A DNA stretch of 39,651 nt from Phycisphaerae bacterium (GTDB lineage: Bacteria > Planctomycetota > Phycisphaerae > Phycisphaerales > SM1A02), in NCBI GenBank assembly GCA_002709295.1, contig PAQL01000039.1:1-39651 (forward strand). Direction: 5' to 3'. Within the stretch, counting starts at the first letter, position 1. The number at the start of each line of letters is the position of its first letter. The position numbers and the translations under genes are program-made. Positions 19,358 to 28,707 of the stretch are shown one piece after another. The notes beneath the pieces are model-generated. The model saw nothing but the letters and a program-made list of their open reading frames with translations, ran no database searches and was not told the DNA's origin.

Positions 19358-20832
19358 GGCGCATCTCCTGTCGGGGCTGCGGAGGGTTCGTCTTCGTGCG
19401 CGTGATGATCGTCGTGGTGTTCCCCGTGGTGGGGATCGGCCTGGGGCATGATCATCTTCACCTCGGCGATGGCGATCATGGGAAGGAAGCGACAGAACAG
19501 GAGGAACATCGTGAAGAAGAGACCGAAGGCCCCGAGCATCGTGCCGATGTCGACCCAGGTGGGCGTGAAGAACTCCCACGAACTCGGCAGGAAGTCGTTG
19601 GCCAGCGAGGTGACGATGATCACGAATCGCTCGAACCACATGCCGATGTTCACCACCAGGCTGAGGAAGAACATGATCGGAATGCTGGTCCGAATCGCCT
19701 TGAACCAGAACAGCTGCGGGGTGATCACGTTGCAGCTCACCATGATCGCGTAGGCCCACCAGTACTGTCCGAAGGCCCGATTGATGAAGGCGAACTTCTC
19801 GTAGATCGCGCCCGAGTACCAGGCGATGAAGAACTCCATGGCGTAGGCGTAACCCACCATGGAACCCGTCACCAGCACGATCTTGTTCATGTTGTCAAGG
19901 TGACGGAGGGTGATCAGATTCTTCAATCCGAACACCTCACGGGCGGGCACCGCGAGAGTGACCACCATCGCGAATCCCGAGAACACCGCACCCGCCACGA
20001 AGTACGGCGGGAAGATGGTGGTGTGCCATCCGGGCAGCTGGCTGGTGGCGAAGTCGAAGGACACCACCGAGTGCACGGAGAGCACGAGGGGGGTGGAAAG
20101 GGCCGCGAGCAGCAGATATGCCCGCTCGTAACGGTGCCAGTGCCGGTTGCTTCCACGCCAGCCGAGAGCGAAGAGACCGTAGGCGAGCTGTCGGATCCGA
20201 CCCTTGGCGCGATCCCGCAGGGTCGCCAGGTCGGGGATCATGCCCGTGTACCAGAAGAGCGAGGAGACCGTGAAATAGGTGCTGACCGCGAAGACGTCCC
20301 AGAGCAGAGGGCTCCGGAACTGAGGCCACATCTCCATCTGATTCGGCAGTGGGAACAGCCAGTAGACGCACCACACCCGCCCGACATGGATGCCGGGGAA
20401 GATCCCGGCGCACATGACGGCGAAGATCGTCATCGACTCCGCGAAACGGTTCACCCCCGTCCGCCAGTTCTGACGGAAGAGGAAGAGGATCGCGGAGATG
20501 AGCGTGCCCGCGTGGCCGATGCCCACCCAGAACACGAAGTTGGTGATGTCGTATGCCCAGGCGACCGGGGTGTTGAGACCCCAGACTCCGACCCCGGTGA
20601 ATATCAGGTAGAGGATGCAGAATCCGAGCAGGCCGAGAAGGCCGAGGGATCCGGCGAAGCCGATGTACCAGGCGATCGGAGTTCGGGGAGTCTCTGCGAC
20701 CCTCGCCACCTTTTCGGTGACTTCACCGAAGGTGTCCATGTTGAGGACCAGCGGAGCTCGCTCTCCGGGGGTCTCGGAGGTGTTGTCGACGATCCGTTCG
20801 CGGCCGAATCCGTCGGCGGGGAGGGTGGTCAT
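19354..20832 (-). CDS. actC: ACIII subunit ActC (NrfD-like quinol-binding membrane subunit 1)
   Basis: The 492-residue NrfD/PsrC-family membrane subunit is thought to bind menaquinol or ubiquinol and work with ActB. About ten helices are visible. Conserved blocks include [90 protein letters not shown] and [14 protein letters not shown]. The C-terminal tail is His/Asp-rich ([17 protein letters not shown]), matching the His-rich tail of ActB. ATG 20832 overlaps the actB stop by 4 bp and the actC stop overlaps actD, so translation is coupled along act. Confidence 0.94.
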
Positions 20833-23800
20833 GACCGGACTCCTTCCGCGAGATCGGCGGCTGCGGCATGGCCGTCCTTGCCTGAATGGCCGTCGTGACC
20901 GTGGTCACCATGGCCATGGCCACCGTGGCCGTGGCCGTGGCCGTCGTCGGAGGACCCCATCGGCACCGCGGGATTCGAGACGCGGGCGAGATACCGGATG
21001 CGTGGCTTGGTGTTGAGTTCCTCGAGGAGCTCGTAGGCGACCTGCTTGGAGAAGAGCCTGGAGACCTCGCTCTTCGGATCATTGAGGTCTCCGAACACGA
21101 TGGCCCCGGTGGAGCACGCCTGGGCGCAGGCGCAGTGGATCGCACCGTCGGGGATCGACCAGTCCGGACTGAACTCGGTGCCCCCTCTGCGAGCCCACTC
21201 GTTCTTGTACTTGATCTTCGCTTCCTGGATCCGCTGGGTGCAGAAGTTGCACTTCTCCATGACGCCGCGGGTTCGAACCGTGACCTCCGGATTGAACTGC
21301 ATCCGCCGCCACTGGTTCGGGCCTTCGGAGGTGTAGTAGTCGGGCTTGACCGCGAAGATGCCGTCCTGCTCGCGGACCGGATCCCGCCGCCAGTAGTCGA
21401 ACCAGTTGAAGCGGCGAACCTTGTAGGGGCAGTTGTTGCTGCAGTAGCGAGTGCCGATGCAGCGGTTGTAGACCATGACGTTGAGGCCGTCCTTGTCGTG
21501 CACGGTGGCAGCGACAGGACAGACCTGCTCGCACGGTGCGTTCTCGCACTGCATGCACATGACGGGCTGGACGAAGACCGCCTCGGGACGGTTGGGATCG
21601 GTGCCCTTGAAGTACCGGTCGATCCGCATCCAGTGCATCTCACGTCCGCGGGCGATCTGGTCCTTGCCCACCACCGGGATGTTGTTCTCGGCCTGGCAGG
21701 CCGTGATGCAGGCCCCGCACCCGGTGCAGGTGTTGAGATCGACCGTCATCGCCCAGCGGAACTTCGCTCCGTCGAGGTTGGTCTCCTCCCAGAGACTGAG
21801 TCGGTGGGCGACGTGCACCCGGTGCTTGGCGAAGTCGGGGTGCGAGCGATAGTCGTCAAGCGTGGTCTCTCGCACGAGGGTGGGGAGACGTTCCTGAATC
21901 CCGGCCTCCGGCACCTCGGGGTTGAGCGCGTCGGCGGCCCCGTGGTCCTGGGTCTGGGCGAAGAGGTATTTCTCACCGGTGGGCTCGATGCTCACCCCGG
22001 ACGAGGCGATCCAGGGAGTGCTTGTGGTGCGGATCGGATAGGCGTCGAATCCCGCGTCCATTCCAACCGGTCCGGCCGCCTCCCCGCGTCCCCAGCCGAT
22101 CGCCATCGCCATGGTCCGGGTGTCCATGCCCGGGACCGGGAAGACCGCGGCCTTCACGGAACGGCCGTCGACCTTCAGAGTCACCAGATCGCCCTCGCTG
22201 AGGCCGCGGGCCTTGCAGAGCGAGGGACTCACCAGCAGGGCGTTGTCCCAGGTGATCTTGGTGATGGAATCCGGGAGCTCCTGCAGCCAGCCGTTGTTGA
22301 CGAAGCGACCGTCATAGACGGTGGAGTCTGACAGGAACTGGAACTCGAGGTCCTCGGGGCTGATCCCCCTGCGGGATTCGATCGTGGCGGCGACCGCCCG
22401 GGCGATGCTCCCGGCCTCGAAGTCGGCCGGGGTCGCGACCGGCCAGGTCGTCCCCGCGACGACGCCCTTGTCGAGGATGGTCCGCCAGTGCGCCTCGAAG
22501 GTCGCGCCGCTGGTGCCCGAACGCATGGCCTCGGTGGCCCGCACGATCGAGTAGCCGTCGGAAGGTTCGGCTCCGCAGAGGGCCGCGACCAGTTCGATGG
22601 GGCTCCAACCCTTCTGGGCCAGATCGATCATCGGCTCGATCAACGGCTGGGTCATCGCGAGCATGCCGTCGTGGGCGGTGGTGTCCCCCCATGACTCGAG
22701 GAAGTGCGTCCGGGGCAGGTGCCATTCCGAAGCGAGCGAGGTCTCGTTCTGCTCGTACGAGAGATGCACGACGTGTGACGCCTTCTTCATGGCCGACGGG
22801 AAGTCGAGATCGGCCGGCGCGTCGTAGACGGGGTTTCCGCCGATGATGACCAGGGTGTCGATGCCCTGGTCGAGCTTCTTCACCAGGGAGGAGATCGAAG
22901 CGAGTCGACTGTCGCCGGAATCCGCGGTGTAGACCACGGTCTTCCCGACGTTTCCGAGCGCGACGTTCATCGCGGCGGCCAGGGCGTGCACCACCGGTGA
23001 CTGTCCTTCGCCGGCCATGACGATCCCCGAGCCTCGATGGGACTCGAGATCCTTCACCATGGCCTCGAAGATCTCGAGGTCGATCCCCTCGAGCTCACGG
23101 GTCGCCGCAAGCTCGGTGGCGCCGTCGATCTTCACCCCGAGTCGCGAGGCGAGGCGGGCCGCGATCGCCGGAACGTCGCCGGGACGGACCGGGATCCGGT
23201 CGTCGGCCATGATGCCGGTGACAGACATGATCCCTTCGAGGCAGTACACCCGGCTGAGCTGCTGCTGGCTGGCGTCCTTGGCCTCCAGACGACGCCGGAC
23301 CGCCCAGTCCCGTGAGAGACGAGTGGAGGCGGAGTGCCCGTGGAGGGGATCGGCATCGAGACAGACGATCACGTCCGCCTTCTCCAGCATCGGCAGCGCC
23401 TTGTGGGGTGCGCCGAACGCGATCCGGGTGCCTTCCCGTTCCGCGTCTCCGTCGATCGGCTCCCACTCGTGCCAGGTGGCCTGGGGGAACCGGGCGGCGA
23501 ACTCCTCGCGCATCCGAGCCATGCTCGGGCTGCCGGAGGCCTCCGCGAGAACCGCCATCGAACCGGTGCCCGTGGGGTTCACGCCGAGGGTGGTGCCGTG
23601 TTCGGCGATCCAGGACTCGAAGTCCGCGGCCGACGACGCCTTGCCGTCCCGATGCACCGTACGGCTTCGGTGGGGGTCGTACAGACCGAGGATCTCGCTC
23701 TGCGTGATCGCATCGCAGCCGCCGACGGTCGTGGGGTGATCGGGGTTGCCCTCGATCTTCACGGGCCTGGCGTCGTAGCTGCGGACGACGACCCCGTGGC

Positions 23801-24170
23801 CGATCCCGCCTCGCTCGACACTTGAGGCGTAGTTGATGAACGTCCCGGGAATCCGCTCCTGGGGGCGGGTCGCGTAAGGGACGATCTTCTGCTCCGGAAT
23901 CCGACGGCAGGCGGCCGCTCCCAGTCCCGCGAGCGCGAAGGAGGCCCCCATCAGCTTCATGAACTGACGGCGGTCGTCACCCTCCAGCAGATCCGCGTTG
24001 GAGGGAAACTCCCGGTGCATCCAGGCTCGGAAGTCCTCTGATCCCTGGAGCTCGTTGAGACTCCGCCAGTACTCGCGGCGTGCGGGCACCGGCGCCTCCG
24101 CGCCATCACGAGGGGCGGAGCTGCATCCATCGGCCGCAGGCCTGTCGTCGCTCGGATTCAGCGATGGCAT
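20829..24170 (-). CDS. actB: ACIII subunit ActB (molybdopterin-like plus Fe-S fusion)
   Basis: ActB is the large peripheral subunit of ACIII, here 1,113 residues. A twin-arginine-like segment ([24 protein letters not shown], residues ~65-88) suggests Tat export. Residues ~90-750 form a molybdopterin-oxidoreductase-like domain with no clear Mo or Fe-S ligand motif, as is known for ActB. Residues ~780-1050 form a ferredoxin-like domain with four Cys clusters: [37 protein letters not shown] with CNFC, and [10 protein letters not shown]. The last ~40 residues are a His/Gly/Asp repeat tail. ATG 24170 overlaps actA by 13 bp; the open frame continues upstream inside actA, which I reject. Confidence 0.95.
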
Positions 24171-24811
24171 GTGGAGCAGTTTTCCGAAGGATTGATGTGG
24201 TAGAGGTTCTTGAGCGCAACTCGTTCCTCGTAGGTGAGTTCGGTGCGCTGGTCGTAGGCGAGATTGGTGACCTGATCGACCGGTCGCAGGTTGTCGACCG
24301 GGTTTCGGTGGCAGTCGAGACACCAGCCCATCGAAAGCGGCTCGTGCCGCTGGACGATCTCCATCTGATCGACCCGCCCGTGACATTCGACGCATCCGAC
24401 ACCACGATTGACGTGCGCGGAGTGATCGAAGTAGGAGTAGTCCGCGATGCGGTTCACCCAGATCCATTCGATGGGTTGACCGGTCTCGTAGCTCATCTGG
24501 ACCTTCTCGAGCTTCGGACTCTCCGGTCGCACCCACTTGTGACAGTTCATGCAGGTCTGAGTCGGAGGGACCGCCGCATGCGCCGCCTTCTCGACCGTGT
24601 TGTGGCAGTACCGGCAGTCCATGCCGAGTTCACCGGCGTGGAGCGCGTGGCTGAAAGGCACCGGTTGCTCCGGTGCGTAACCGACCTCCAGAGTCTTGGG
24701 ACTGAAGCCGTAAGCAACGAACATGACCACGTACAGAGGCAGCAGAGCCCCGACCACCATCAGGGTGGGCAGGAGTGCGTTGCTCCATCGAGGAAAAAGA
24801 AATCTGCTCAT
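24158..24811 (-). CDS. actA: ACIII subunit ActA (pentaheme cytochrome c)
   Basis: The 217-residue membrane-anchored multiheme cytochrome is the first gene of the act operon. An N-terminal helix spans ~12-34. Five CxxCH heme sites lie at 66-70 (CRYCH), 87-91 (CMNCH), 140-144 (CVECH), 164-168 (CLDCH) and 212-216 (CSTCH), with further His residues (FSHALHAG, FDHSAHV) as likely distal ligands. It relays electrons from the ActB Fe-S clusters to periplasmic cytochrome c. ATG 24811 has GAGG four bases upstream. The promoter at 24893-24922 drives it. Confidence 0.95.
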   Translation of the reverse strand: MSRFLFPRWSNALLPTLMVVGALLPLYVVMFVAYGFSPKTLEVGYAPEQPVPFSHALHAGELGMDCRYCHNTVEKAAHAAVPPTQTCMNCHKWVRPESPKLEKVQMSYETGQPIEWIWVNRIADYSYFDHSAHVNRGVGCVECHGRVDQMEIVQRHEPLSMGWCLDCHRNPVDNLRPVDQVTNLAYDQRTELTYEERVALKNLYHINPSENCSTCHR

Positions 24812-24974: not shown

Positions 24975-25045
24975 CCCCCCCGATCACCTGGTTTTTCACC
25001 CCCCCCGATCACCAAGTTTTTCACCCCCTCCGAGCACCATGTTCA
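24975..25045. repeat. Three tandem 25-bp repeats upstream of actA
   Basis: Three head-to-tail units share a C-run, then GATCACC, then GTTTTTCA (plus strand). The GATC/GAGC anchors are at 24982, 25007 and 25032, so the period is exactly 25 bp. Units 1 and 2 differ mainly at three central bases (TGG/AAG). Unit 3 is degenerate. They lie 53-123 bp upstream of the act promoter -35 and within the act-EIIA divergent region, so they could be binding sites for a regulator. Confidence 0.65.
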
Positions 25046-25183: not shown

Positions 25184-25189
25184 TAAGGT
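25184..25189 (+). promoter_or_regulatory. -10 hexamer TAAGGT, leaderless-type
   Basis: TAAGGT is followed by tccttc and then GTG 25196, a 6-nt spacing. AAGG within the hexamer could alternatively serve as a Shine-Dalgarno sequence, so this case is ambiguous. Confidence 0.4.
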
Positions 25190-25195
25190 TCCTTC

Positions 25196-25654
25196 GTGGC
25201 ACTGGCTCCCTACCTCTTTGATTCCGGCGTCCTGATTCTGGATTCCGCAGCCGACCGCAATGCCGTTCTGGCGGCAGCCGCGAAGGCTGTCGCCGGGGTC
25301 CTGACCGGTGTCGAGGAGGACACGCTGCTGGGGGCCCTCGTGGCCCGCGAATCCCAGGCCGCGACGGGGACCCCCGAGGGAATCGCCTTTCCTCACGCCA
25401 TGGTGCCGGATCTCCCCGACTCCAAGGTCGTGGTGATCAGGACCTCCACACCCGTCGATTTCGGAACCGGATGTCGGTGTGATCTCGTCTTCGCGATGTT
25501 CGGGGATGCGAACCAGCCCTGGGAACACGTCCGACTGCTCGCCCGACTCGCCCGGATCACGAACCGTCCCGACTCCAGGGAACGACTCCGTTCGGCCCCC
25601 GATGCAGCCTCCCTGCTGCTCGCCCTCCAGAGCGAGGATGCTGCCAATGCCTGA
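25196..25654 (+). CDS. PTS EIIA-like (PtsN/fructose type) regulatory protein
   Basis: The 152-residue product has the EIIA-2 fold signature. The probable phospho-His is His67 in GTPEGIAFPHAMVPDLP, preceded by LLGALVARESQAATG. The segment CDLVFAMFGDANQPWEHVRLLARLARI matches the later helical part of the domain. No EIIB, EIIC or HPr gene is nearby, so it is probably a regulator in the manner of PtsN rather than part of a sugar transporter. The start is GTG 25196. Its stop overlaps the next gene by 8 bp, and two antiporter genes follow, which suggests it controls ion transport. PtsN is known to affect K+ systems in proteobacteria; extending that here is inference. Confidence 0.8.
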   Translation: MALAPYLFDSGVLILDSAADRNAVLAAAAKAVAGVLTGVEEDTLLGALVARESQAATGTPEGIAFPHAMVPDLPDSKVVVIRTSTPVDFGTGCRCDLVFAMFGDANQPWEHVRLLARLARITNRPDSRERLRSAPDAASLLLALQSEDAANA

Positions 25655-25976
25655 CGCAGGCCATCGGCTTCTCATCCTGATCGCCAGGAACGAGGATGCG
25701 TTCGATCCTCTGGTGACCGGTCTCCTCGATGTCGGCATCACCGGGGCCACCATCATCGAGAGTCGTGGCATCGGCGCCGTGATCCGCGAGGACATGCCGT
25801 TCTTCGCCGGACTCGCCGCTCTCCTGCCGCAGCACACCGGCAGCCGGATGCTCGTCTCGGTCGCGACACCCGATCGCATCGAAGGGCTGCTGCGGTATCT
25901 CGACCAGCTCCGACCCGAGCAGAGACCGGTCGGCGCAGTCCTTCCGGTCGAAGCCGTGATCGGCTTCGGACACTGA
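25647..25976 (+). CDS. PII-like (GlnB-superfamily) small regulatory protein
   Basis: The 109-residue product has a ferredoxin-like beta-alpha-beta pattern. It consists of RLLILIARNEDAFDPLVTGLLDVGITGATIIES, then a loop (RGIGAVIREDMPFFAGLAALLPQHTG) at the T-loop position, then SRMLVSVATPDRIEGLLRYLDQL. The second half ends in GAVLPVEAVIGFGH. This is the PII superfamily layout, but the canonical T-loop Tyr and ATP-site Lys/Arg signatures are not evident, so ligand and modification are unknown. ATG 25647 overlaps the EIIA stop by 8 bp; an in-frame ATG at 25638 is also possible. It precedes two antiporters, like other transporter-linked PII-like proteins. Confidence 0.7.
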   Translation: MPDAGHRLLILIARNEDAFDPLVTGLLDVGITGATIIESRGIGAVIREDMPFFAGLAALLPQHTGSRMLVSVATPDRIEGLLRYLDQLRPEQRPVGAVLPVEAVIGFGH

Positions 25977-26029
25977 CCCGATGATCGCTCACGCCTGACT
26001 TCTCAACCGGCGCGTGGAGAACTCGCTTC

Positions 26030-27307
26030 GTGACCCCCCTGCTCGTGCTCGCTGAATCCGGTGGTGGAGCCACCCGCGTGCTGTTCATCTTCGTCGGCAT
26101 CGCGCTGGTGGGGATCGCCGCGACCTTCGCGACCACCCGGATCTACGCGAGGCTTCAGCGTCACCGTTGGATCGCCGCACTCACCGCCGGCGGGTGGTTC
26201 GCGATGATCACCGGGGTCCTGATCGGTCCTCGAGTGCTGGCGGTCGTAGACGATTCGGGGCTGCAGCCGATGCTGCCCCTCCTTGATGTCGCACTGGCAT
26301 GGATCGGACTCATCGTCGGACTCCAGCTGCGACGGGTCCTGGTCTCCGCGATCCCCGGCGACCTCGTCCGATGGCTTCGCAACGACACCGCCGCATCCAT
26401 GCTGGCCGGAATCGGAACCTTCGCGATCTGGTGGGCGATCGTGCGACCCGACATCGGAACGGGAATCCTCGGCATCGCCGCCCTCGGGCTCGTGGCCTCG
26501 TTCATCGGCTGGGCTCCGGAGACGCGATCCCTCCGCCCCGCGCTGACCCCTCGAAGCGGCGAGCTCGCCCAGCTCGTCCAGGCCGGCGGCGGCCTGGGTT
26601 CGGTGCTCGCCATCCTGCTGTTCGGGTGCGGCACGCTCTTCGTCCGCTTCGGCCCCGGCGATCCCACGGTCGTCGCACCGTGGATCGGACTGCTGGAACT
26701 CGGACTCAGCGGCATCATCGCGATCCTTCTCGGATTCGGAGCCCGAACCCTGCTTCGCCTCACCAGCGGAGCGCCTCAGGAATCCCTGGTCATCACCCTC
26801 GCCCTCGTGATGCTCGGAGCCGGGTTCGCATCTGCGCTCGGGCTCAGTCCGCTCCTCAACGGGCTGCTCACCGGCGCAGTCATCGCGAACCTGCGCGATC
26901 CGATCCTTCGCGACCTCGAACGCGCCCTGCAGCGTGCAGAACCCGGCATGGCCGTCATGATGCTGATCGCATCGGGTTCCCTCGCCAGCAACGCCGATCT
27001 CGGGCAGGCGGTGATCCTCGGATGCTCGATCGCAGGCATCCGGTTGATCATGAAACCGCTCATCGCCCGCTCGACCGTCGGTTCGGCGTTCGGAGATCTT
27101 CCCGCCCGGGATCCGCTGTTCCTTGGCCCCGCGCGGGTCCCGTTCGTCGCGATCGCGATCGCGATCGGACCGGCGGTCGCCACCGAGGATCCCCTGGCCG
27201 ACACCGTTCTCGCGTCGGTGATGATCGCCACCCTGCTGGGTGCGGTGCTCCCCGGAATCGCCGGCCGACGTTCCGTCGGTGAGCCGCTCACGGAGGTGAC
27301 GAAGTGA
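26030..27307 (+). CDS. CPA-type antiporter-like membrane protein, possibly non-catalytic
   Basis: This 425-residue protein has about 12 hydrophobic segments and the two-repeat feel of CPA2 sodium/proton exchangers (GGWFAMITGVLIGPRVLAVV, WIGLIVGLQLRR, GLSPLLNGLLTGAVIANL). Where the next gene has the acidic CPA2 motif (KDLVLV), this protein reads VQAGGGLGSVLAILLFG with no Asp. It may therefore be a regulatory or structural partner rather than an independent exchanger. It starts at GTG 26030, with GGAGA about nine bases upstream, 53 bp after the PII-like gene. Its stop overlaps the next gene by 4 bp, which suggests 1:1 production of the two proteins. The family call is moderate. Confidence 0.7.
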   Translation: MTPLLVLAESGGGATRVLFIFVGIALVGIAATFATTRIYARLQRHRWIAALTAGGWFAMITGVLIGPRVLAVVDDSGLQPMLPLLDVALAWIGLIVGLQLRRVLVSAIPGDLVRWLRNDTAASMLAGIGTFAIWWAIVRPDIGTGILGIAALGLVASFIGWAPETRSLRPALTPRSGELAQLVQAGGGLGSVLAILLFGCGTLFVRFGPGDPTVVAPWIGLLELGLSGIIAILLGFGARTLLRLTSGAPQESLVITLALVMLGAGFASALGLSPLLNGLLTGAVIANLRDPILRDLERALQRAEPGMAVMMLIASGSLASNADLGQAVILGCSIAGIRLIMKPLIARSTVGSAFGDLPARDPLFLGPARVPFVAIAIAIGPAVATEDPLADTVLASVMIATLLGAVLPGIAGRRSVGEPLTEVTK

Positions 27308-28707
27308 GCAGCGATTCCAGAAGACTTCTCGCGATCGCGGGCATCCTCGTCCTGCTGGTCTCGCTGGTGTTCGTCGCGAACGGATTCGAGCCCACCCTCG
27401 CGGCGAACATGGACGGCGCGGTGACGGCGAACGACTCGGCCTCGCCGGACCAGGAACGCGCGATCAACGGATTCACGCTCGCCCTCGGCTTCGTCATGCT
27501 GGGCGCATGGCTGCTCGGCGAACTCGCGGCCCGGATCGGGCTGCCCCGGGTGGTTGGCTACCTGTCGTTCGGAGTCCTTGCGGGACCGGGACTCCTTCCC
27601 ACCGCCTTCGGACTTCCCGCGCCGATCTCCGGAGGGGAACTCGATCTGCTCAAGCAGCTCGACGCCCTCGCGATCTCGCTGATCGCCCTCGTCGCCGGAG
27701 GGGAGATCAAGGTCTCCTTCCTGCGCGGCATGCTCGGTCGGATCGCGACCCTGCTCGGATTGCAGATCGGCATCATCCTGGTCGGGGTGGCCCTCGTCGC
27801 GTTCCTCCTCGTCCTGCCCTCGATCCCCTCCCTCCGTGAACTGCCGCTGTCCGCATCGATCCACCTCGCGTTGGCGATGGGCCTGCTCTGCGTGGCCAAC
27901 TCGCCCGCGATCGTGATCGCGATGATCAACGAGACCGGAGCCCGGGGCCCGATGTGCGACACCGCCCTCGCGGCGACGGTCTGCAAGGACCTCGTGCTGG
28001 TCATCCTGATCTCGATCCTTCTGGCCTTCGTTCCGATCGCCTTCGCGACCGAGACCGAGACCGGAAACATGGCGCTGGCCGGGGAGGCCGCCTGGCACCT
28101 GATCGGATCGATCGGTTTCGGGATGTTCGTGGGCGTGGCCATGCACTACGCGGCGCTCCGCATCGAACGGCAGATCGACGTCTTCATCGTGCTGTGCGGA
28201 TTCGCGATCGCCTTCGCGAGCAATGCCCTGCACTTCGCCCCCCTGCTCGTGGCCCTGGTCGCGGGCTTCACTCAGGCGAACATCTGGCCGGATCGAAGCG
28301 AACGCATGTTCCATTCGATCGAGAAGCTCCTGCTTCCGGTCTACTGCATCTTCTTCGCGACCGCAGGTGCGGGCATCCCCATCGACGCGGTCATCCAGCT
28401 CTGGCCGGTAGCCCTGCTCCTTGTCGCCACGAGACTCCTTCTCGTCTGGGCCGGCACCACCAGCGGCGCGAAGTTCGCCCGCCTCGATGTCGGCGTCCGG
28501 CCGTGGATCTGGACCGCCTTCACGCCGCAGGCGGGCGTGGCGATCGCCCTCGCGCTCGAGCTCGCCAACATCCTGGGCGATCGACCATTCGTGAGCGATC
28601 TCACGGCGCTGCTGCTGGCGGCGATAGCGATCAACGAGGTGCTCGGTCCTCTGCTCATGAAGTGGGGGCTGCAGCGTGCGGGCGAGGTGCCCGTTCCGGC
28701 ACGCTGA
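27304..28707 (+). CDS. CPA2-family Na+(K+)/H+ antiporter
   Basis: The 467-residue membrane protein has about 13 helices. A first helix (10-28) and a short extracytoplasmic segment precede the exchanger domain. Recognisable blocks are LGELAARIGLPRVVGYLSFGVLAGPGLLP, DALAISLIALVAGGEIKVSFLRG and VANSPAIVIAMINETGARGPMCDTALAATVCKDLVLVILISILL. The last is the CPA2 core, with Lys-Asp where Kef-type proteins have Gln-Asp. Further blocks are LLVALVAGFTQANIW and FTPQAGVAIALALELA. There is no TrkA-N (RCK) domain, so the EIIA and PII-like proteins may supply control. GTG 27304 overlaps the previous stop by 4 bp. Confidence 0.8.
   Translation: MSSDSRRLLAIAGILVLLVSLVFVANGFEPTLAANMDGAVTANDSASPDQERAINGFTLALGFVMLGAWLLGELAARIGLPRVVGYLSFGVLAGPGLLPTAFGLPAPISGGELDLLKQLDALAISLIALVAGGEIKVSFLRGMLGRIATLLGLQIGIILVGVALVAFLLVLPSIPSLRELPLSASIHLALAMGLLCVANSPAIVIAMINETGARGPMCDTALAATVCKDLVLVILISILLAFVPIAFATETETGNMALAGEAAWHLIGSIGFGMFVGVAMHYAALRIERQIDVFIVLCGFAIAFASNALHFAPLLVALVAGFTQANIWPDRSERMFHSIEKLLLPVYCIFFATAGAGIPIDAVIQLWPVALLLVATRLLLVWAGTTSGAKFARLDVGVRPWIWTAFTPQAGVAIALALELANILGDRPFVSDLTALLLAAIAINEVLGPLLMKWGLQRAGEVPVPAR

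Follow-up and report, generated by a model that had tools for sequence, protein, structure and literature searches.

An operon of a Phycisphaerae bacterium joins EIIA and PII-like genes to an unequal pair of antiporter-fold proteins

The control of membrane transporters by EIIA-type proteins and by PII-like proteins is in each case known from experiment. In Escherichia coli, unphosphorylated PtsN (EIIA-Ntr) binds and inhibits YcgO, a K+/H+ antiporter of the CPA1 branch of the cation/proton antiporter (CPA) superfamily (PMC11808508), and the PII-like protein SbtB inserts its T-loop into the inter-domain cleft of the transporter SbtA (PMC8352866). KefC, a K+/H+ exchanger of the CPA2 type, is a homodimer with RCK domains in the same chain (PMC11150392) and is gated by this nucleotide-sensing module; KefF is its ancillary protein. 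Furthermore, a second ptsN gene is found in alphaproteobacterial kdp operons, that is, an EIIA gene inside a cation-transport operon (PMC13104625). Here, we describe an operon on contig PAQL01000039.1 of a Phycisphaerae bacterium, in a stretch of 39,651 nt that was analysed as a whole (the window), in which an EIIA gene and a PII-like gene stand together with two genes for CPA-fold membrane proteins, ANTa and ANTb, that divide the residues of a canonical antiporter active site between them.

The four genes occupy positions 25196-28707 of the forward strand. They encode an EIIA protein of the PTS_EIIA_2 family (25196-25654, GTG start, 152 residues), a PII-like signalling protein (25647-25976, ATG start, 109 residues), ANTa (26030-27307, GTG start, 425 residues) and ANTb (27304-28707, GTG start, 467 residues), of which we predict the last to be a catalytic subunit and ANTa its non-transporting partner. 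EIIA and PII-like genes overlap by 8 bp, a gap of 53 bp precedes ANTa, and ANTa and ANTb overlap by 4 bp. An earlier note, made from the letters of the window alone, had described these four same-strand reading frames and their junctions, and all four are present. Its coordinates stand except for the beginning of EIIA: the start codon that agrees with the orthologues is at 25196, 12 bases downstream of the 25184 given there. It had also called the two membrane proteins twin antiporters, a description that is not supported.

ANTb is readily assigned to the CPA superfamily (PF00999, E 3.2e-18, 66.2 bits against a cut-off of 26.2), and its family profile matches the Na+/H+ antiporter NapA over the full length (6.2e-9), with D157 in register. 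ANTa, by contrast, has no significant match in Pfam, PF00999 included, or in NCBIfam, and even its profile finds no match in the PDB by sequence, so that its matches there come from fold comparison: its model is a complete CPA fold (pLDDT 88) that superimposes on NapA with a Z-score of 28.1 and an rmsd of 4.9 over 370 residues. The family profiles of ANTa and ANTb are nevertheless homologous (hhalign probability 99.6%), and this homology, together with the NapA fold match, leads us to reject the idea that ANTa is not a CPA protein. Because it has Ser191 in place of the ion-binding aspartate, we class it as a CPA-fold protein, and not as an antiporter. An RCK domain was found in neither protein, as had been noted before.

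In known CPA antiporters, the aspartate at the position of NapA D157 is essential for transport and a hallmark of cation/H+ exchange. We mapped this residue, its neighbour D156 and the lysine K305 onto both families in a NapA-anchored MAFFT alignment, counting distinct sequences and assigning the labels ANTa and ANTb by gene order along transcription, not by residues. ANTb has Asp at 157 in 40/40 sequences and never at 156 (Lys in 31), and none has Lys at 305; in the window, D229 corresponds to D157, K228 to D156 and V381 to K305, and the codons of this 'KD' motif lie at 27985-27990 (+). ANTa shows the reverse: Asp at 157 is missing from all 41 sequences, in which Ser, Ala, Val, Gly or Asn stands instead, all 41 keep Lys or Arg at 305, and Asp at 156 occurs in 10, exclusively outside the Phycisphaera-type lineages. 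The window's ANTa has G190-S191 (codons 26597-26602, +) in place of the NapA DD motif and retains the lysine of transmembrane helix 11 (K342, equivalent to K305). MAFFT and hhalign give the same register, so that we reject an alignment error as the reason why the aspartate is missing. Single CPAs that are linked to a PII-like gene mostly possess all three residues (Asp157 in 24/28, Asp156 in 25/28, Lys305 in 27/28). Given its loss of D157 in 41/41 homologues, ANTa is therefore probably a non-transporting partner, or 'pseudo-antiporter', in a heteromer, and the sequences make it more likely that the pair comprises one catalytic subunit, ANTb, and one regulatory or scaffold subunit, ANTa. That ANTa is a full CPA fold and not a fragment, with R338 and K342 invariant in its family, indicates that it is under selection.

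In a phylogenetic tree, ANTa forms one clade (support 0.98) and ANTb another (0.88), the latter joining seven of the single PII-linked CPAs at support 1.0. The pair is thus ancient and plausibly derived from the duplication of a PII-linked exchanger. The distances within the two families correlate (r 0.97 over 33 loci), although shared genome history confounds this value, which carries no species-tree correction. Two further arrangements of CPA genes were seen: a tandem pair without a PII gene in view (L016:737-3294; L numbers designate our loci), one member having DD..K and the other DD..L, may from its residues be similar to an early step towards the split, and one Phycisphaera metagenome-assembled genome (MAG) has a third CPA gene after ANTb, itself of the ANTb type with KD (L053:9194-10678).

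The EIIA protein belongs to PF00359 (E 3.6e-18, 66.3 bits against a gathering cut-off of 27) and has a histidine at residue 67, in agreement with the phosphorylatable His67 of the earlier reading; this active-site residue is kept in 51/52 aligned rows, fused forms included. PtsN proteins are the nearest solved relatives (1.4e-9 in a PDB search), but the protein fails the PtsN equivalog TIGR01419 (62.7 bits against a cut-off of 138.7). It is, judged by these scores, EIIA-Ntr-like (Ntr/Fru-like within its family), and we do not file it as PtsN.

The PII-like protein on its own remains below the gathering cut-off of PF00543 (E 0.022, 15.5 bits against 25), and single-sequence PDB searches with it, as with ANTb, gave no relevant match, so that profiles were required. 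A profile of 14 homologues matches solved PII proteins (2eg1, E 3.6e-5). The AlphaFold (AF2) model, a monomer with pLDDT 87.5, shows the beta-alpha-beta/beta-alpha-beta arrangement of the PII fold and matches GlnK, PstA, CPII and SbtB in Foldseek (1.2e-4 to GlnK2) and VIA searches; in the latter, PII-like proteins reach a top Z-score of 10.1, with many matches tied, at an rmsd of 2.3-3.2 over 77-83 residues. The structural comparison that had been proposed for this 109-residue protein thus bears out its PII-like nature. A partial match to ATP phosphoribosyltransferase (hisG; E 0.07-0.1) was considered as an alternative relationship and rejected. Compared with 2eg1, GsGi replaces the GDGK B-loop, the B-loop lysine is not conserved and the C-terminal arginine pair is missing; because neither this lysine nor the C-terminal arginines are conserved, the protein is PII-like and not a GlnB or GlnK. 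Likewise, the C-terminal CGPxGC redox hairpin of SbtB type is absent, the protein having no cysteine in its 109 residues; this motif occurs in only some SbtB homologues (PMC8352866). In the region equivalent to the T-loop (approximately residues 50-61), the family has a conserved hydrophobic stretch, MPxFAGLAxLxP, and the PII-like protein is the best conserved of the four products, with a median identity of 40% against 27-32%.

To follow the conservation of the gene order that the earlier note had proposed for checking, we used a sample of 392 Planctomycetota genomes and a separate scan of one genome per species. A search of the sample with ANTa yielded ten loci with the complete order EIIA-PII-ANTa-ANTb within the same order of bacteria, the window included, and of the 23 strong PII-like loci fetched from it, 20 are flanked by a CPA gene and 18 by an EIIA gene. 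The per-species scan gave 80 PII-like loci. Besides Planctomycetota, MAGs labelled Deltaproteobacteria, Myxococcota and CSSED10-310 have the full four genes; a PII-like gene with one CPA only is found in Clostridia, in a Desulfovibrio MAG and at one Caldiserica locus. Since further families and other phyla show this gene order again, the linkage is not due to chance; it is real and old. Fusions connect the same components: five genomes, all from one planctomycete family (L026, L029, L133, L134 and L140), encode EIIA and PII-like protein in a single open frame, and CPA and EIIA form a single protein at L013 and L015. These EIIA-fused planctomycete CPAs (L013:1351-3126, L015:892-2703) carry NN instead of the DD motif and are possibly, from this motif, another antiporter-like sensor without the ion-binding aspartate. 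Members of the PII-like family also occur without a CPA or EIIA gene nearby (L062, L123, L125, L126 and Cryosericum-type loci such as L081), where they might have other partners.

The genome around the operon, about 95% complete, contains one HPr, which adjoins another EIIA, two EI N-terminal domains and altogether two further EIIA genes. The earlier statement that HPr is missing thus applies to the window, and that of a missing sugar permease applies to the module. With HPr and EI present, a phosphate donor chain exists, and the notion of an EIIA without a phosphate donor is rejected. Neither AmtB nor a canonical PII protein (GlnB or GlnK) was found, the module's PII-like protein being the only PII-family protein detected; these absences are provisional, as the genome is only about 95% complete. 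One c-di-AMP cyclase gene is present, and a plasmid search returned none.

We propose that the operon encodes one regulated heteromeric cation/H+ antiporter complex, gated by EIIA and the PII-like protein, a proposition that we regard as evenly balanced. ANTb would be the transport-competent subunit, with a CPA2/NapA-like core and Asp229 as its essential residue. ANTa, a diverged paralogue of the same fold that lost this aspartate, would most simply take the second place in the CPA dimer, and this heterodimeric stoichiometry would make the cytoplasmic side of the complex asymmetric. EIIA would report the phosphorylation state of the relay from phosphoenolpyruvate through EI to HPr in the phosphotransferase system (PTS) and, when unphosphorylated at His67, would bind and inhibit the exchanger, or else release it. 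The PII-like protein, presumably a trimer, would report a ligand of the adenine-nucleotide type (ATP/ADP/AMP, cAMP or c-di-AMP) and use its conserved hydrophobic T-loop region to gate the exchanger. Together, the two proteins would stand in for the RCK domain of KefC, and the complex would open or close the exchange of Na+ or K+ for H+ according to the energy and carbon state of the cell. In a more specific form, to which we lean rather less than halfway, the heteromer is obligate: an ancestral exchanger with DD and K was duplicated, and reciprocal losses of active-site residues turned the copies into a catalytic and a pseudo-antiporter subunit, gated jointly by EIIA and the PII-like nucleotide sensor.

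Several points weigh against this proposal. As far as is known, CPA antiporters assemble as homodimers in which each protomer contains its own ion site; because of this location, the residue split is not simply explained by the two protomers complementing each other. D157 is replaced in 4/28 of the single PII-linked CPAs, which have DN or DS instead of DD, so that its loss may not always mean a loss of transport, and shared genome history weakens the correlation between ANTa and ANTb distances. At L075, an EIIA-PII fusion stands with an ANTa-like protein and ANTb is not in view; in such fusions, the EIIA portion is degenerate around the histidine. The canonical PII residues for ATP and 2-oxoglutarate are not conserved in the PII-like family, as seen in the 2eg1 profile alignment and in the family alignment. 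The target of PtsN in E. coli is a CorC/RCK tail, and ANTa and ANTb have no such tail to grip. Finally, there is a symmetry mismatch between a PII trimer and a CPA dimer; this objection is tempered by the binding of PII to the ABC transporter NrtBCD (entry 8wm7, in the Foldseek match list).

As an alternative, ANTa and ANTb could be two separate homodimeric transporters that EIIA and the PII-like protein regulate jointly because both act in one pathway. ANTb would then exchange cations for H+, and ANTa would be a diverged carrier that differs from it in substrate or mechanism. The whole CPA fold of ANTa and its invariant Arg/Lys pair are what a working carrier might have, some single PII-linked CPAs without D157 have been retained, and L075 offers an ANTa-like gene without ANTb. 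On the other hand, E304 is the sole conserved acidic residue of the ANTa family, ANTb almost always follows ANTa directly and the two co-diverge, which makes such independence in our judgement doubtful. That ANTa is instead a decaying duplicate without function would agree with its lost catalytic aspartate and its identity, the lowest of the four products, yet its reading frames are intact over large distances and across a clade of 41 members, its fold is modelled with good confidence and R338 and K342 do not vary; we strongly disfavour this explanation and give it hardly any credence.

Two other explanations concern the inputs and the substrate. If EIIA and the PII-like protein never touched the antiporters, sharing only the operon with them, they would form a separate signalling branch, for instance in gene expression or nitrogen metabolism. 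Such a role would suit the loci at which the PII-like gene stands alone and its position as the only PII-family protein found in this genome, but it leaves unexplained why PII-CPA linkage recurs across unrelated phyla and why EIIA and CPA are fused at L013 and L015, and AmtB was not found; we consider it quite unlikely. Alternatively, the pair might move a substrate other than Na+ or K+, such as NH4+ or an organic anion, with the PII-like protein reporting nitrogen state; nitrogen transport is a classical target of PII proteins. The unusual KD motif of ANTb and its non-basic residue at K305 imply that its ion chemistry may differ from that of NapA and KefC; the invariant D157 and the absence of the canonical nitrogen-sensing residues, however, render another substrate improbable.

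As to the surroundings of the operon, a TatD nuclease gene follows ANTb downstream. Upstream and divergent lie genes for a multihaem cytochrome and an iron-sulphur/molybdopterin-type oxidoreductase (20829-24811, -), which we take to resemble alternative complex III. The gap that separates the cytochrome gene from EIIA contains a 25-bp tandem repeat of 2.8 copies, CCCCCCCGATCACCAAGTTTTTCAC (24975-25043), which is possibly regulatory DNA.

Compared with the described systems, the components are of known kinds. With PtsN and YcgO the operon would share the control of a CPA-superfamily antiporter by phosphorylation-dependent binding of an EIIA-type protein, but YcgO is the product of one gene with a CorC/RCK tail, without a linked PII gene or a pseudo-antiporter partner. 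With SbtA and SbtB it shares a PII-like protein alongside a transporter, and the fold of this protein (Z about 9-10 to SbtB), but SbtA is a trimeric bicarbonate transporter, no EIIA is involved and the cysteine hairpin of SbtB is lacking here. ANTb matches NapA in length and in D157, and ANTa in fold, but ANTb has Lys at 156 and no K305, ANTa has no D157, and the catalytic set is split between paralogues. Like KefC, the exchanger would be gated by nucleotide sensing, here through separate PII-like and EIIA proteins and not through domains of its own chain. The kdp operons with a second ptsN serve another transporter class, and no PII-like gene is described there (PMC13104625). In view of the precedents for each input, two-sensor control is less unusual than first suggested. 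What remains of the suggestion of an undescribed system is the combination: searches of the open-access literature for PII-like proteins with antiporters, EIIA with antiporter domains and heterodimeric CPAs found neither the four genes together nor the reciprocal residue split, and the combination thus appears to be undescribed in that literature.

The module suggests a salt or pH exchanger that is wired to the energy state of the cell. If the proposal is true, a CPA exchanger that has its own non-transporting paralogue would be a natural experiment on the roles of D157, D156 and K305. Ion and pH homeostasis would be directly linked to the PTS relay and to a PII-like sensor, which would bear on the question, still open, of the reason for potassium control by PTS-Ntr systems. 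It would also provide a function for a widespread but poorly annotated PII-like family and, should the heteromer be obligate, define a two-input, split-subunit class of exchangers in several phyla.

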